DNA of 64,000 bases, from positions 1 through 64,000 of the forward strand of contig DVLL01000006.1 in NCBI GenBank assembly GCA_018715525.1, given 5' to 3'. Positions within the stretch are counted from its first letter, which is position 1, and each line of letters begins with the position of its first letter. Position numbers and translations under genes: made by a program. Origin of the DNA: Candidatus Faeciplasma pullistercoris (lineage in GTDB: Bacteria; Bacillota; Clostridia; Oscillospirales; Ruminococcaceae). Positions 84 to 63,452 of the stretch are shown here, piece after piece. The notes under the pieces are model-generated. The model had not been told where the DNA came from and did not search any database. It worked only from the letters and a program-made list of their open reading frames with translations.

Positions 84-432
84 TGGTGGAGGCGACGGGA
101 GTCGAACCCGTGTCCGAAAACCCCTTCGGAAAACCTTCTACGAGTGTAGCTTATCCTTTAGCTTCCCTCGGCAAGCGCTGACAAGCAAGCTCTATGCCTC
201 GGTATCCGGAAATGCACCGCATGGCTACCGGAGTCGCCGCGCGGCGTTCACTGCTAATCGACGCCCAAACCGGTGCCGCAGTACTCACCGGCAGGACGGG
301 CTGCTATTAAGCAGCAGCCAATTCTAAACTATTATTGTCGTTTAATTTTTAAGTTGCGTCATTTTAAGAGATTGGCGCTTTCTCTACTCGCTTATTCGCC
401 GTCAGAATCCCCGTCGAAACCTTTACGCCCCC
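84..432 (-). ncRNA. ssrA: tmRNA (transfer-messenger RNA)
   Basis: Minus strand 5' end GGGGGCGTAAAGGTTTCGACGGGGATTCTGAC, 3' end ...TTCGGACACGGGTTCGACTCCCGTCGCCTCCACCA, internal tag ORF ending GCTGCTGCTTAATAG; close to smpB. Confidence 0.95.
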
Positions 433-56721: not shown

Positions 56722-57858
56722 CTACTTTTGAAGCGTGCCGTTTGAAAGCGCCTTGAGATAGGCGTTGATGAAGCCGTCAAGATCGCCGTCCATTACCGCC
56801 TGAACATTGCCGTTCTCAAAGCCGGTGCGGTGATCCTTTACAAGCGTGTAGGGCATGAATACATAAGAGCGTATCTGCGAACCCCACGCTATTTCCTTCT
56901 GCACGCCCTTTATGTCCTCTATCTTCGCCAGATGCTCCCTCTCCTTTATCTCAACCAGCTTGGAGATGAGCATTTTCATCGCGTAGTCCTTGTTCTGCAC
57001 CTGGCTTCTCTGAGTCTGGCAGGCGGTGACTATTCCGGTGGGTATGTGCGTGATCCTGACCGCCGATGAGGTCTTGTTTATATGCTGTCCGCCCGCTCCG
57101 CTCGCGCGGTAGGTGTCTATCTTTAGATCCTCCGGTCTTATCTGAACGCTCAGATCCTCATCAATTTCCGGAAGCACCTCGAGCGCCGAAAAGGAGGTAT
57201 GCCTTGAACCGGAGGCGTCAAACGGGGATATCCTGACAAGTCGGTGAACACCAGCCTCGCTCTTAAGATAGCCGAAGGCGTTCTCCCCCTCTACAATCAC
57301 CGACGCGCTCTTGATTCCGGCGTCTGTTCCTTCGAGCTCGTCCAGCACCGAGACCTTATAGCCGTGCTGCTCTCCCCAGTGTATATACATCCTCAAAAGC
57401 ATTTGAGTCCAGTCCTGAGCCTCTGTTCCTCCCGCTCCGGCATGGAAATGAAGAATAGCGTTTGCGTGGTCGTACTCGCCGGTAAGAAGCGTCGAGATGG
57501 TAAGCTTGTCTATTTTTGCGCAGAAGTCCTCAATCTCCGTCTTTATGTCTCCCAAGAGCTCCTCGTCGTTGTCCTCTGAGTACATCTCTATCATGGTGGC
57601 GATGTCATCAGCCTGGGAATTGAGCTTACGATCGTTTTCCACCGCGTTCTCAAGCGTCTTTGTTCTTTGCAGAACCTTCTGGGATTTCTCAAGATCGTCC
57701 CAGAACCCCGGCTCCGCAGCCTTGTTGTGAAGCTGCTCTATTTCCTCCTTGGAAGCCTCGATATTGAGCACCGAGTGAAGCTCCTTGAGCTTTGGGCGGT
57801 ACTCCGAAAGCTTCTGGCTAAGCTCGTCTATAAGTAACATATATTCCTCCATCAGCAT
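56722..57858 (-). CDS. prfB: Peptide chain release factor 2
   Basis: 378 aa; HFHAGAGGTEAQDWTQMLLRMY...YRASGAGGQHINKTSSAVRITHIPTGIV...SQIRSYVFMPYTLVKDHRTG. Confidence 0.96.
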   Translation of the reverse strand: MLMEEYMLLIDELSQKLSEYRPKLKELHSVLNIEASKEEIEQLHNKAAEPGFWDDLEKSQKVLQRTKTLENAVENDRKLNSQADDIATMIEMYSEDNDEELLGDIKTEIEDFCAKIDKLTISTLLTGEYDHANAILHFHAGAGGTEAQDWTQMLLRMYIHWGEQHGYKVSVLDELEGTDAGIKSASVIVEGENAFGYLKSEAGVHRLVRISPFDASGSRHTSFSALEVLPEIDEDLSVQIRPEDLKIDTYRASGAGGQHINKTSSAVRITHIPTGIVTACQTQRSQVQNKDYAMKMLISKLVEIKEREHLAKIEDIKGVQKEIAWGSQIRSYVFMPYTLVKDHRTGFENGNVQAVMDGDLDGFINAYLKALSNGTLQK

Positions 57859-58145: not shown

Positions 58146-58174
58146 TTGACATCGCGAAAAAAAAGATGTAGAAT
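58146..58174 (+). promoter_or_regulatory. Sigma-70-type promoter for mgtE
   Basis: Near-consensus TTGACA - 17 nt - TAGAAT. Confidence 0.75.
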
Positions 58175-58224
58175 TGATTCGTGTCTGTAGATACGAAAAA
58201 TGTAATTTTAAAGGAGTGAAATCC

Positions 58225-58308
58225 GTGGACTCAGGCAGTTGCCCTAACACACCCCGAGGGAAAACTTCATACCGGGAACAAGCAGCAGCTGCGAGTTTGC
58301 CCGGATGA
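58225..58308 (+). CDS. Candidate leader peptide (27 codons) upstream of mgtE
   Basis: SD AAAGGAG, 8-nt spacing, GTG start: (M)DSGSCPNTPRGKTSYREQAAAASLPG*. Stop codon lies in the 3' arm of the downstream terminator. Confidence 0.5.
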   Translation: MDSGSCPNTPRGKTSYREQAAAASLPG

Positions 58309-58316
58309 GCTTTTTT
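58267..58316 (+). terminator. Candidate attenuator/intrinsic terminator in the mgtE leader
   Basis: TCAT-a-CCGGG ... CCCGG-ATGA stem, GC, then TTTTTT; an alternative outer stem GAGGGAAAA (58256-58264) / TTTTCCCTC (58313-58321) would bury the T-run. Confidence 0.6.
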
Positions 58317-58348
58317 CCCTCTGATTCAACAGAAGATCGGAGGATACT

Positions 58349-59716
58349 ATGGAAAAGACCACTGTATTTGACATTGTCATCAAGCTCCTCGACCAGCGGA
58401 AGTTCGCGGAGCTCAAGGTGATAATGAATCAAATGAACCCGGCTGACATAGCCTCGATTTTTGACGAGGCTTCAAAAAAAGATATTCCGCTTTTGTTCCG
58501 GCTTTTGCCCAAGGAGCTTGCAGCCGAAACGTTTGCCTACCTTGACAGCGACCAGCAGGAGCAGCTTATTCTCGCCTTTACCGATGAGGAAATCAGGGAA
58601 ATGACTAACGAGCTTTTCCTTGACGACACGGTAGATATAATCGAGGAAATGCCCGCGAACGTAGTCAGCAGGATACTTAAGAACACTGATGAGGCGACAA
58701 GACGGCAGATAAACGAGCTGCTCGCCTATCCGGACGACAGTGCGGGAAGCCTTATGACCCCCGAGTTTGTCTATCTGAACAAATCCATGACCGTCAAGGA
58801 AGCCTTCATAAAGGTCAGACAGGTGGGCGTTGCAAAGGAGACCATTTACACCTGCTATGTCACCGAGCAAAGAAAGCTTATAGGAGTTGTCTCGCTTTTG
58901 GACCTTGTGACCGCGTCCGAGGACACAAGGATAGAAGAGATAATGGACGAAAACGTCATAAGCGTCAAAACCAAGGAGGACAAGGAAACCGTCGCGAAGA
59001 CGCTCGCCAAGTACGACCTGCTGGCGCTGCCGGTAGTTGACGGCGAAAACAGAATAGTCGGTATCGTAACCGTAGACGACGCCATCGACGTTATCCAGGA
59101 GGAGACGACGGAGGATATCGAAATCATGGCGGCTATTTTGCCTACCGACAAGCCCTACTTCAAGACGGGTGTGATTGAAACCTTCCTCAAGCGCATTCCA
59201 TGGCTTCTTTTGCTCATGGTTTCAGCGACATTCACAGGTATGATTATAACCGGCTTTGAGGAAAAGCTTGCCGCAAGCGTAGTTCTTACGGCGTTCATCC
59301 CTATGCTCATGGACACAGGCGGTAACGCCGGAGGACAGGCGTCAGCGACCATTATCCGCGGTCTGTCGCTTGGGAACATCGAGCTTAGAGACATAGCCAA
59401 GGTCATATGGAAGGAAATAAGGGTATCAATTCTGTGCGGCGCGGCGCTTGCGATCGTCAATTTTGCCAAGGTCATGTTAATAGACGGACTGCTTTTAGGA
59501 AACGCGGAAATAAACGCCGTCGTTGCGCTTGTCGTCTGCCTGACGCTGGTAATAGCAGTCTTTATAGCCAAGGTGATAGGCTGCACCCTGCCGATACTTG
59601 CTAAAACCATAGGCTTCGACCCTGCTGTAATGGCGAGCCCGTTTATTACCACCATCGTAGACGCCATCACGCTTTTGGCGTACTTCCTTATCGCCCAGGC
59701 GCTGCTTCACATTTGA
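58349..59716 (+). CDS. mgtE: Magnesium transporter MgtE
   Basis: 455 aa; MgtE N domain, two CBS domains, TM domain with PMLMDTGGNAGGQASATIIRGLSLG. Confidence 0.96.
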   Translation: MEKTTVFDIVIKLLDQRKFAELKVIMNQMNPADIASIFDEASKKDIPLLFRLLPKELAAETFAYLDSDQQEQLILAFTDEEIREMTNELFLDDTVDIIEEMPANVVSRILKNTDEATRRQINELLAYPDDSAGSLMTPEFVYLNKSMTVKEAFIKVRQVGVAKETIYTCYVTEQRKLIGVVSLLDLVTASEDTRIEEIMDENVISVKTKEDKETVAKTLAKYDLLALPVVDGENRIVGIVTVDDAIDVIQEETTEDIEIMAAILPTDKPYFKTGVIETFLKRIPWLLLLMVSATFTGMIITGFEEKLAASVVLTAFIPMLMDTGGNAGGQASATIIRGLSLGNIELRDIAKVIWKEIRVSILCGAALAIVNFAKVMLIDGLLLGNAEINAVVALVVCLTLVIAVFIAKVIGCTLPILAKTIGFDPAVMASPFITTIVDAITLLAYFLIAQALLHI

Positions 59717-61087: not shown

Positions 61088-62272
61088 TTACTGCCAATTT
61101 ACACTCCAGCGCTCGGAATAATCTCCGCTGATTGTCCCGCGCGCGCTGCTTTTGAGCTTTGACGCCGCGATTTTCTCCCCGAGCAGTCTATCAAACTCCT
61201 CCGGGTCGATAGGAAGCCTTATCGGCAGATTTCCCTTCCACTGCGAAATATACGCAGCGTTTGATATCATCAGCTCGTTTATTCCCTCTCTGCCGTCCGC
61301 CACAAGCGGAGCGCCGCAAAGTATAGCGTCCGCGAACGCCTGTATGACGCCCATGTGAGCGGTCTCCCTCTCGTCCTCTCCGGGGGTATACTCGGTGTAG
61401 CCGGTCCGTATCTTGGCAAAGCTCTCCCTTGACTCATGGCAGACCTGCCTCTCGGAGGTCTCAAGCGTCCAGAGCCTGAGCGTTCCGCCCTCTATGACCG
61501 CTTTTCCGCGCTCGCCGGATATCTCAAGGCGATTTGTGCCGGGGTATTCCCCCGTCGAGGTGATGAACACTCCGGTAGAGCCGTCGGGGTACCTTGCAAA
61601 TATCGTCGCCGCGTCCTCCGTCTCGATATTATGATACCTTGCCGTGTCGCAAAAAGCGGTTATCTCACAGGGCATCCCGCATATCCACTGCCATATGTCA
61701 AGGTTGTGCACAGCCTGATTGAGGAGCACTCCTCCGCCCTCTCCCGACCATGTCGCGCGCCAGTCTCCCGAGTCGTAATAGCAGTCGGTGCGGTACCAGT
61801 TGGTTATTATCCAGTTTGAGCTCTTTATCCTGCCGAGAGAGCCGTTTAAGACTAATTCCTTAAGCCTCTTAAAGAGAGGGTTCATCCGCTGATTAAACAT
61901 TATGCCGAACACCCTGCCGCTTTTGTCTGCGGCATCGTTGAGGCTTTTCGCGCGGCTGACAGATATGTCCTCCGGCTTCTCGCAAAGAACATGCAGACCC
62001 TTTTCAAGAGCCTTCGCCGCTATCTCGGCGTGCAGCCTGTGGGGAACGGAAACTATCACGGCGTCGCAGCAGCCGCTTGACAAAAGCTCGGAATAGCTCT
62101 CAAATCTTGCTGCCCCCGCAAACGCAGACTCCGCGTACTCAAGTCGGGTCGGGCTTATGTCGCACACCGCCGCGAGCTCCATGCCGCAAATGCCGCCTGA
62201 GTAAACCCCCGCGGCGTGAGCCGTGCCGATATTCCCAAGGCCTATTACGCCTAATCTTACCTTACCTGACAT
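61088..62272 (-). CDS. Gfo/Idh/MocA family oxidoreductase, paralog 1
   Basis: 394 aa; VRLGVIGLGNIGTAHAAGVYSG...VLCEKPEDISVSRAKSL...WSGEGGGVLLNQAVHNLDIWQWICGMP. Confidence 0.92.
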   Translation of the reverse strand: MSGKVRLGVIGLGNIGTAHAAGVYSGGICGMELAAVCDISPTRLEYAESAFAGAARFESYSELLSSGCCDAVIVSVPHRLHAEIAAKALEKGLHVLCEKPEDISVSRAKSLNDAADKSGRVFGIMFNQRMNPLFKRLKELVLNGSLGRIKSSNWIITNWYRTDCYYDSGDWRATWSGEGGGVLLNQAVHNLDIWQWICGMPCEITAFCDTARYHNIETEDAATIFARYPDGSTGVFITSTGEYPGTNRLEISGERGKAVIEGGTLRLWTLETSERQVCHESRESFAKIRTGYTEYTPGEDERETAHMGVIQAFADAILCGAPLVADGREGINELMISNAAYISQWKGNLPIRLPIDPEEFDRLLGEKIAASKLKSSARGTISGDYSERWSVNWQ

Positions 62273-62282
62273 CTTATCCGGG

Positions 62283-63452
62283 TCACTTGCCTCCGTATGT
62301 TCCCGAGGTATCCGCGAACACAGCCTCCGAGGCGGCCTTTCTTCTTGAGGTGGCGACCCTCTTCATCAGCTCGTCCTTGAAGAGCTGCTCGTCAAATGGA
62401 AGCTCTACCTCACGGCCTAAGAACGATGAAAGGTGCATTGCGTTAGAAAGCATAAGTCCGTTTATGCCTTCCCTGCCGTCCGCCACGAGCGGCTCTCCTC
62501 TCAAAATAGCGGCAGCCCACGCGTTGAGCACTCCAACATGCTGCTCGTTTTTGCCGTCAAGCTCCACCTCGATTTGCGTTGCCTTCGGGCAGCCGAACGG
62601 AACCTTATTTGTCCTTGAGAACTCCTGCTCGCCCATCTCAAGCTCCCAGACTGAAAGCTTGCCGTACTCCGCGATTATCTTGGCGCGGTCGAGCTGGATC
62701 TCGAACCTGTTTGTGCCGCAGGCGTCGCCGGTTGTAGTTATAAATACCCCTGTAGCGCCGTTTTCGTACTCCACGTACGCTGTCACGTCATCCTCGACCT
62801 CGATGTCATGCCACTTGCCGTAGTGAAGGTGAGCCTCCACCTTTTTCGGCATTCCGCATATCCACTGCCACAGATCAAGCTGATGAGGGCACTGATTGAG
62901 AAGGACTCCTCCGCCCTCTCCCGACCATGTCGCGCGCCAGTTGCCTGAATCGTAGTACGCCTGAGGTCTGTACCAGTCGGTAATTATCCAGTTTGTCCTC
63001 TTGATCTGTCCGTAAGCCCCCGACTGAACAAGCTCCCTCATCTTTCTGTAGACGCAGTTTGTGCGCTGATTGAACATCATTCCGAATACTGCCTCCGGAT
63101 GCTTGTCAGCCTCCTCGATCATCTGCCTTACCTGGATGGTGTAAACCCCGGCAGGCTTTTCGCACATAACATGTATTCCCCGCTTCATGCACTCGATTAC
63201 ATACCTCGCATGGTCATAATGGGGCACGCTGACTATGCAGGCGTCGATTTTGCCGGAGTCGAGCATAGTCTCGGCATTGTCAAACAGCGCGACGTCCTCG
63301 CCGAGCTCCGCCTTCGCCCACTCGAGACGGGCGGGATTTATATCCGCGACCGCAGTCACCTCTATCTCAGGGCACATTCCCGCCTTTATGTTGCGGGCAT
63401 GACCCGATCCCATGTTTCCTATTCCTATAATTCCAAGCCTTACCTTTTTCAT
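62283..63452 (-). CDS. Gfo/Idh/MocA family oxidoreductase, paralog 2
   Basis: 389 aa; VRLGIIGIGNMGSGHARNIKAG...VMCEKPAGVYTIQVRQM...WSGEGGGVLLNQCPHQLDLWQWICGMP. Confidence 0.92.
   Translation of the reverse strand: MKKVRLGIIGIGNMGSGHARNIKAGMCPEIEVTAVADINPARLEWAKAELGEDVALFDNAETMLDSGKIDACIVSVPHYDHARYVIECMKRGIHVMCEKPAGVYTIQVRQMIEEADKHPEAVFGMMFNQRTNCVYRKMRELVQSGAYGQIKRTNWIITDWYRPQAYYDSGNWRATWSGEGGGVLLNQCPHQLDLWQWICGMPKKVEAHLHYGKWHDIEVEDDVTAYVEYENGATGVFITTTGDACGTNRFEIQLDRAKIIAEYGKLSVWELEMGEQEFSRTNKVPFGCPKATQIEVELDGKNEQHVGVLNAWAAAILRGEPLVADGREGINGLMLSNAMHLSSFLGREVELPFDEQLFKDELMKRVATSRRKAASEAVFADTSGTYGGK

Follow-up and report, generated by a model that had tools for sequence, protein, structure and literature searches.

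Mg2+ sensing by leader peptides is well established in enteric bacteria. In E. coli, ribosomes translating the leader MgtL drop off at an acidic N-terminal motif (PMC11282234), and the M-box riboswitch was described upstream of corA, mgtA, mgtE and mgtE-nramp genes (PMC4072509). The leader considered here precedes an mgtE gene in the window, i.e., the whole stretch of 64,000 nucleotides that was analysed, and is present in one copy in the genome of the window. The initial annotation had described a promoter, an AAAGGAG site followed by a GTG-initiated ORF of 27 codons whose TGA stop falls in the 3′ arm of a hairpin, a run of six T's and an outer stem, and had found no match between the leader and the M-box. 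All these parts were found in the sequence where it had placed them (Table 1), and the leader is indeed no M-box: it has no Rfam match, and a search with the covariance model found no M-box (RF00380) in the genome.

Table 1. Features of the mgtE leader region, in positions of the window
Feature	Start	End	Strand	Basis or remark
Sigma-A-type promoter TTGACA-N17-TAGAAT	58146	58174	+	TTGACA 58146-58151, TAGAAT 58169-58174; 11/12 consensus
Leader ribosome-binding site AAAGGAG	58210	58216	+	Sequence
Leader ORF (M)DSGSCPNTPRGKTSYREQAAAASLPG	58225	58308	+	GTG 58225-58227, 27 sense codons, TGA 58306-58308
Conserved codons 2-5 (D-S-G-S), peptide-level signature	58228	58239	+	Codon usage across 67 leaders
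P-R-G codons and leader arm GAGGGAAAA (anti-anti-SD)	58252	58264	+	Complementarity, covariation
Terminator-like hairpin (58267-58308) and T-run (58311-58316)	58267	58316	+	Lineage-specific
3′ (anti-SD) arm TTTTCCCTCTGAT	58313	58325	+	Complements leader arm 58256-58264 and mgtE SD 58336-58343
mgtE Shine-Dalgarno (SD) ATCGGAGG	58336	58343	+	Sequestered by 58318-58325
mgtE, Mg2+ transporter, 455 aa	58349	59716	+	TIGR00400, 471 bits (cut-off 232.75)

Promoter-like sites number 3 in the 600-nt region, compared with 0.6 in shuffles, and a TTGACA-N17-TAxAAT promoter stands at the equivalent place in most of the congeners whose upstream DNA was inspected. None of 200 shuffles folds as well as the whole leader (z -3.55). 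Its terminator-like hairpin pairs TCAT-a-CCGGG (58267-58276) with CCCGG-ATGA (58300-58308) ahead of the T-run, and folding of 58266-58316 gave -18.9 kcal/mol (z -3.4). A second hairpin, overlooked by the initial annotation, pairs CCTCTGAT (58318-58325) with ATCGGAGG and so covers the mgtE SD; it comprises 8-9 bp in the MFE fold and recurs in the genus. The mgtE product carries the Pfam domains MgtE, MgtE_N and CBS. Elsewhere in the window there is a tmRNA gene (84-432, minus strand, 165 bits) and, at 56722-57858 on the minus strand, a release-factor-2-like ORF, identified from its translation, which forms one continuous frame and so seems to do without the programmed frameshift that prfB typically has. 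Two tandem oxidoreductase-like ORFs of ~390 aa, apparently paralogous, lie at 61088-63452 (minus strand).

Genes for mgtE were searched in 60 relatives and in 295 genomes of the order, and the upstream DNA was inspected for 29 congeners and 60 loci from other genera. The leader ORF precedes mgtE in all 29 congeneric loci and in about 38 of the 60 others, a few of them borderline. Nearly all the homologous leaders have a site of the GGAG(G)TGA type in front of them. The congeneric leaders start with M-[D/G]-[A/S/G]-G/N-S/G/A and continue further on with [P/H]-R-G (29/29), the exceptions within this pattern being a Gly at position 2 (L024) and an Asn at position 4 (L008); the consensus in the other genera is M-[D/E]-[A/S/T]-G-S-S-x-G-x(n)-[P/G]-R-[S/G]. 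Past the R-[S/G] codons neither the leader sequence nor the stop is conserved: codons 15-27 vary, and in two leaders (L021 and L027) the stop already comes at codon 15 and the C-termini are frameshifted. The distance from the start to CGARGK is in frame in 50 of 51 leaders (9, 12, 15, 18, 21, 30, 33, 36, 39 or 54, with one further value out of frame). Codon 2 is GAC, GAT or GAA in 63/67 leaders, codon 4 is a GGN codon in 56/67 (GGC, GGA, GGG and GGT all occur), and the third base of codon 3 likewise varies freely over all four. Since codons 2-3 vary synonymously and are not part of the main pairing arm, the constraint on them would bear on the peptide or the early phase of translation, and not on the RNA alone. 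The conservation thus includes the start codon and the frame besides RNA structure, and by this comparative evidence (start, N-terminal codons and frame) the leader ORF is genuine; its translation is deduced from the same conservation. A small functional protein acting on the transporter, in the manner of MgtS or MgtR, would account for a conserved N-terminus beside transporter genes. This candidate was rejected for its unconserved C-terminus, i.e., the length, the stop and everything past the R-G/S motif, with frameshifts in L021 and L027; the product is also short and hydrophilic, and it is very improbable that such a peptide is what the ORF provides.

The range of the leader was followed with a model (R1) built from 26 leaders, which spans -16 to the R-codon and consists of leader DNA only, without transporter sequence. 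Within the class it matched 40 of 391 genomes at E <= 0.01; 28 of the 30 loci examined precede mgtE, and the other two (L092 and L113) precede an MgtA-type P-type ATPase. In a phylum-wide sample it found 8 genomes besides that of the window at E <= 0.001, and the best eight loci outside the window genome precede mgtE (six) or mgtA (two). A scan of about 85,000 genomes, one per species, with the pattern GGTGAN{3,7}ATGGANNCNGGNAGTAGT gave at least 80 loci. Among the 80 loci listed, 79 precede mgtE, mgtA, mgtE_N–Nramp (NrmT) or corA-type genes, and the sole non-Mg2+ locus (L180) is a chance match within coding sequence; by BLAST and Pfam, 59 of the 80 stand before an MgtE-matching protein and 16 before MgtA, and the five left unassigned (L123, L151, L170, L179 and L180) were classified by inspection. 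The hosts, by their record titles, include Clostridia, Pectinatus, Trichococcus, and MAGs of Coriobacteriia and Propionibacteriaceae, and also Clostridioides difficile strains CD160 and CD10-165, where the leader precedes mgtA. The link between leader and Mg2+ transport made by the initial annotation therefore stands, but its scope is wider than was estimated there and extends to mgtE, mgtA, NrmT and corA genes across the phylum.

Several loci depart from the simple arrangement. In L123 and L133 the leader precedes operons of MgtE_N-CBS and Nramp genes (L133 was scored as mgtE by its N-domain only), and in L179 mgtE lies behind an inserted transposase-like ORF. In Clostridium sp. OS1-26 (L151) a first leader (MDAGSSMCSG...) is followed by an mgtC fragment, and a second copy (MDTGSSMGIEPDG...) lies directly before mgtA, the two copies standing at roughly +0 and +687 when counted from the first of them. 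In Trichococcus palustris (L170) the order is leader, small ORF and CorA gene; the small ORF, a 96-codon frame of unknown function in the region of about +190 to +840, may encode a protein newly linked to regulation by Mg2+. Just before the transporter, another short ORF that has a ribosome-binding site to itself was seen in L118/L135 (MDPVPLPVNFGKN...), L117 (MDSGPLPGYF...) and L184 (MDDGPAGREYGQF...); its stop overlaps the transporter SD region in L117 and L118, and the string MDPVPLP found in such an ORF resembles enteric MgtL (MEPDPTPLP).

The RNA feature shared by the leaders is an anti-SD arm upstream of the transporter (TACTTCC, TACCTCC or TTCCCTC), which complements both the leader codons (GGAAGTAGTnnCGGCACAA and/or CGAAGTA, CGAGGTA or GAGGGAAAA) and the ribosome-binding site of the transporter. 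In the window the leader arm GAGGGAAAA (58256-58264) is a perfect complement of TTTTCCCTC (58313-58321). In the set found by the pattern scan, pairing of leader codons 2-15 with the anti-SD arm gave -28.4 kcal/mol for native pairs, compared with -19.0 for shuffled and -22.2 for swapped pairs, the shuffles preserving base composition only; native beat shuffled in 39/43 mgtE and 12/12 mgtA loci, and beat swapped in 36/43 and 12/12, a conservative comparison in that relatedness was handled through the swaps alone and these take in close relatives. Pairing of the ribosome-binding site with the same arm gave -16.2 (native), -12.7 (shuffled) and -13.8 kcal/mol (swapped), native beating shuffled in 37/43 mgtE and 10/12 mgtA loci and swapped in 31/43 mgtE loci. 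The control segments of this set (transporter codons 5-18 and leader positions -57 to -16) had no pairing effect. In the first set, i.e., the genus and order leaders, both anti-SD pairings were likewise favoured, with a weak effect of the control transporter codons 3-12 in the order group. The anti-SD arm was also tried against the ribosome-binding site of the leader itself; outside the genus set this pairing gave no clear signal, with a null upstream control, and it was dropped.

That native pairs beat swapped ones means that the arms covary, and this can be seen in CGAGGTA/TACCTC in the genus of the window versus CGAAGTA/TACTTC in other genera, or in AACATAAGC/CTTATGT in C. difficile CD160. 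The arms also differ by clade, the second leader site being used in the window genus and the first in other clades. The outer stem of the initial annotation is accordingly a real alternative pairing: it is complementary in the window, and it covaries among relatives. The same pairing would explain the nearly constant use of AGT for the leader serines and of CGA for the arginine. Partition-function folds with ribosome footprints left the SD mostly paired in all states, with small and mixed effects on accessibility and no clean switch between on and off. Judged by complementarity and covariation, the anti-SD arm pairs alternately with the leader codons or with the transporter SD, and the three-arm RNA is conserved.

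A structure of this kind could also be a Mg2+-binding riboswitch with an incidental ORF, a reading that draws on the strong nucleotide conservation (GGNAGTAGT and CGA), on the long-range covarying pairing and on a gene set that is the same as that of the M-box (PMC4072509). It would leave unexplained the conserved start codon, ribosome-binding site and frame, the in-frame spacing (50/51) and the synonymous variation at codons 2-4, and the leader has neither an Rfam match nor a compact conserved junction, the loop between the arms being variable; an incidental ORF is thus considered unlikely. The near-universal rare CGA codon and the AGT codons raise a further alternative, namely that the leader senses a signal other than Mg2+ (general translation stress, or the decoding of Arg-CGA or Ser-AGT) with Mg2+ transporters as its output, and the coupling between Mg2+ and ribosome function would make such an output reasonable. 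Both codon preferences, however, can equally be put down to pairing with the anti-SD arm, and the fact that the leader goes with four families of Mg2+ transporters and with nothing else argues for Mg2+ itself as the signal, so that a different signal appears quite improbable.

The output is a separate question. The initial annotation had proposed transcription attenuation, in which translation of the leader controls the formation of the intrinsic terminator at 58267-58316. The hairpin and T6 of the window are present and fold well, the sister L002 retains both with T5, and the outer stem and the terminator overlap, as such a switch would have it. A strong hairpin (at most -10 kcal/mol) with five or more T's was found, however, in only 3/29 leaders of the genus (the window, L002, and L009 with an unrelated hairpin), 5/32 of the order and 7/26 of the class, and the codons inside the hairpin (15-27) and the stop position are not conserved, whereas the SD hairpin and the anti-SD arm are. 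The terminator switch was not supported by this comparison. The intrinsic terminator was rejected as the conserved output on account of its rarity, and the leader stop codon as the regulated position of the ribosome because it varies, to the point of lying at codon 15 in L021 and L027; it is quite improbable that attenuation at this terminator is the general mechanism, and in the window the hairpin may add a lineage-specific second layer. The output that is conserved is the pairing of the anti-SD arm with leader codons or SD, which places control most likely at translation initiation.

Taken together, the locus is likely a cis-acting leader for Mg2+ transport in which a translated ORF is fused to a three-arm RNA switch that works by translational attenuation. 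Arm A would consist of leader codons from about 4 to 15 (the P-R-G codons in the window genus), arm B of the anti-SD sequence just upstream of the transporter, and arm C of the transporter ribosome-binding site. As arm A mimics arm C and both pairings use arm B, A:B and B:C would be mutually exclusive. While the leader is being translated, arm A would be melted or covered, B would pair with C, and the transporter would stay untranslated; an early abort of leader translation would let A pair with B, which would free the SD and allow the transporter to be translated. Importers are needed at low Mg2+, and the sensible input would therefore be a loss of leader translation at low Mg2+. Most simply, the abort would come about because low Mg2+ makes the ribosome unstable on the nascent Met-Asp/Glu-x-Gly start, as in E. 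coli MgtL; a destabilisation of a related kind would agree with the acidic residue (Asp/Glu) conserved at position 2. The conserved ORF, its association with Mg2+ transporter genes and both pairings are established by the comparisons of sequences given above; from these we infer the response to Mg2+, the direction of the switch and the step that involves the nascent chain and the stability of the ribosome.

A search of the open-access literature (subscription papers lay outside it) found no earlier description of the leader, including the string MDAGSS, and it is rated as a leader family that is new and widespread, serves Mg2+ transport and works like a translational attenuator. The fuller proposal, for which the balance is judged even, is that of a widespread Mg2+ sensor, read by the ribosome on Met-Asp/Glu-x-Gly-Ser-Ser, whose leader codons mimic a ribosome-binding site and which serves at least four non-homologous transporter families in Bacillota and some Actinomycetota. 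If this is true, the sensing of Mg2+ through translation has more than one origin and commonly stands in for the M-box, and gut Clostridia and C. difficile strains would have a separate, conserved leader family in front of all the major classes of bacterial Mg2+ importers. The leader would then predict Mg2+ regulation, and Mg2+ as the substrate, for many transporter genes, and it offers a direct test of whether the stability of the ribosome serves as a Mg2+ gauge.

Among the known systems, MgtL of enteric mgtA, which acts by intrinsic destabilisation of the ribosome, is likewise a short leader ORF that precedes a Mg2+ transporter gene and has an acidic residue 2, and its translation has been proposed to set the RNA structure (PMC11282234). 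The shared sequence is limited to that acidic second residue: the EPDP motif of MgtL is absent from the 67 leaders, with a proline at position 3 only once (L048), and one acidic residue by itself makes a weaker motif than EPDP. The output of MgtL is Rho-dependent termination, whereas in the window-type leader it would be anti-SD pairing at the transporter ribosome-binding site, and MgtL is enteric, while the window-type leader occurs in Bacillota and some Actinomycetota before four transporter families. The translational attenuators of the erm/cat type also combine a short leader ORF with mutually exclusive hairpins that hide or expose a downstream SD; in the window-type leader, by contrast, the signal would not be an antibiotic, the leader codons mimic the ribosome-binding site, and in place of exposure induced by stalling, an untranslated leader is predicted to be ON, i.e., the reverse. 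The M-box element with the pe20 uORF in M. tuberculosis shares the link to Mg2+, the uORF and the SD, anti-SD and anti-anti-SD arms, but it is driven by an M-box aptamer and its conserved uORF2 is specific to mycobacteria (PMC12810186). The mgtE motif of Thioalkalivibrio, a strong riboswitch candidate (SRC-65-1), lies upstream of mgtE and includes the SD as well, but belongs to one proteobacterial genus and is a motif of RNA structure not reported as an ORF (PMC11109978).

The M-box (ykoK) Mg2+ riboswitch, RF00380, precedes the same genes as the leader (PMC4072509); the leader, in contrast, has no M-box aptamer and contains an ORF that, to judge from its conservation, is translated. In the order sample, an M-box lies before mgtE in L039, L070, L079 and L089, all of them without the leader, and the two elements alternate before mgtE orthologues. 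In one genome (G299, locus L042) the M-box and the leader ORF stand in series before a single mgtE, an arrangement that suggests either a two-layer control by Mg2+ or an evolutionary intermediate. Given its recurrence in many Bacillota and a few Actinomycetota before four unrelated kinds of magnesium transporter, the leader probably takes the place of the M-box as a translation-based magnesium switch.
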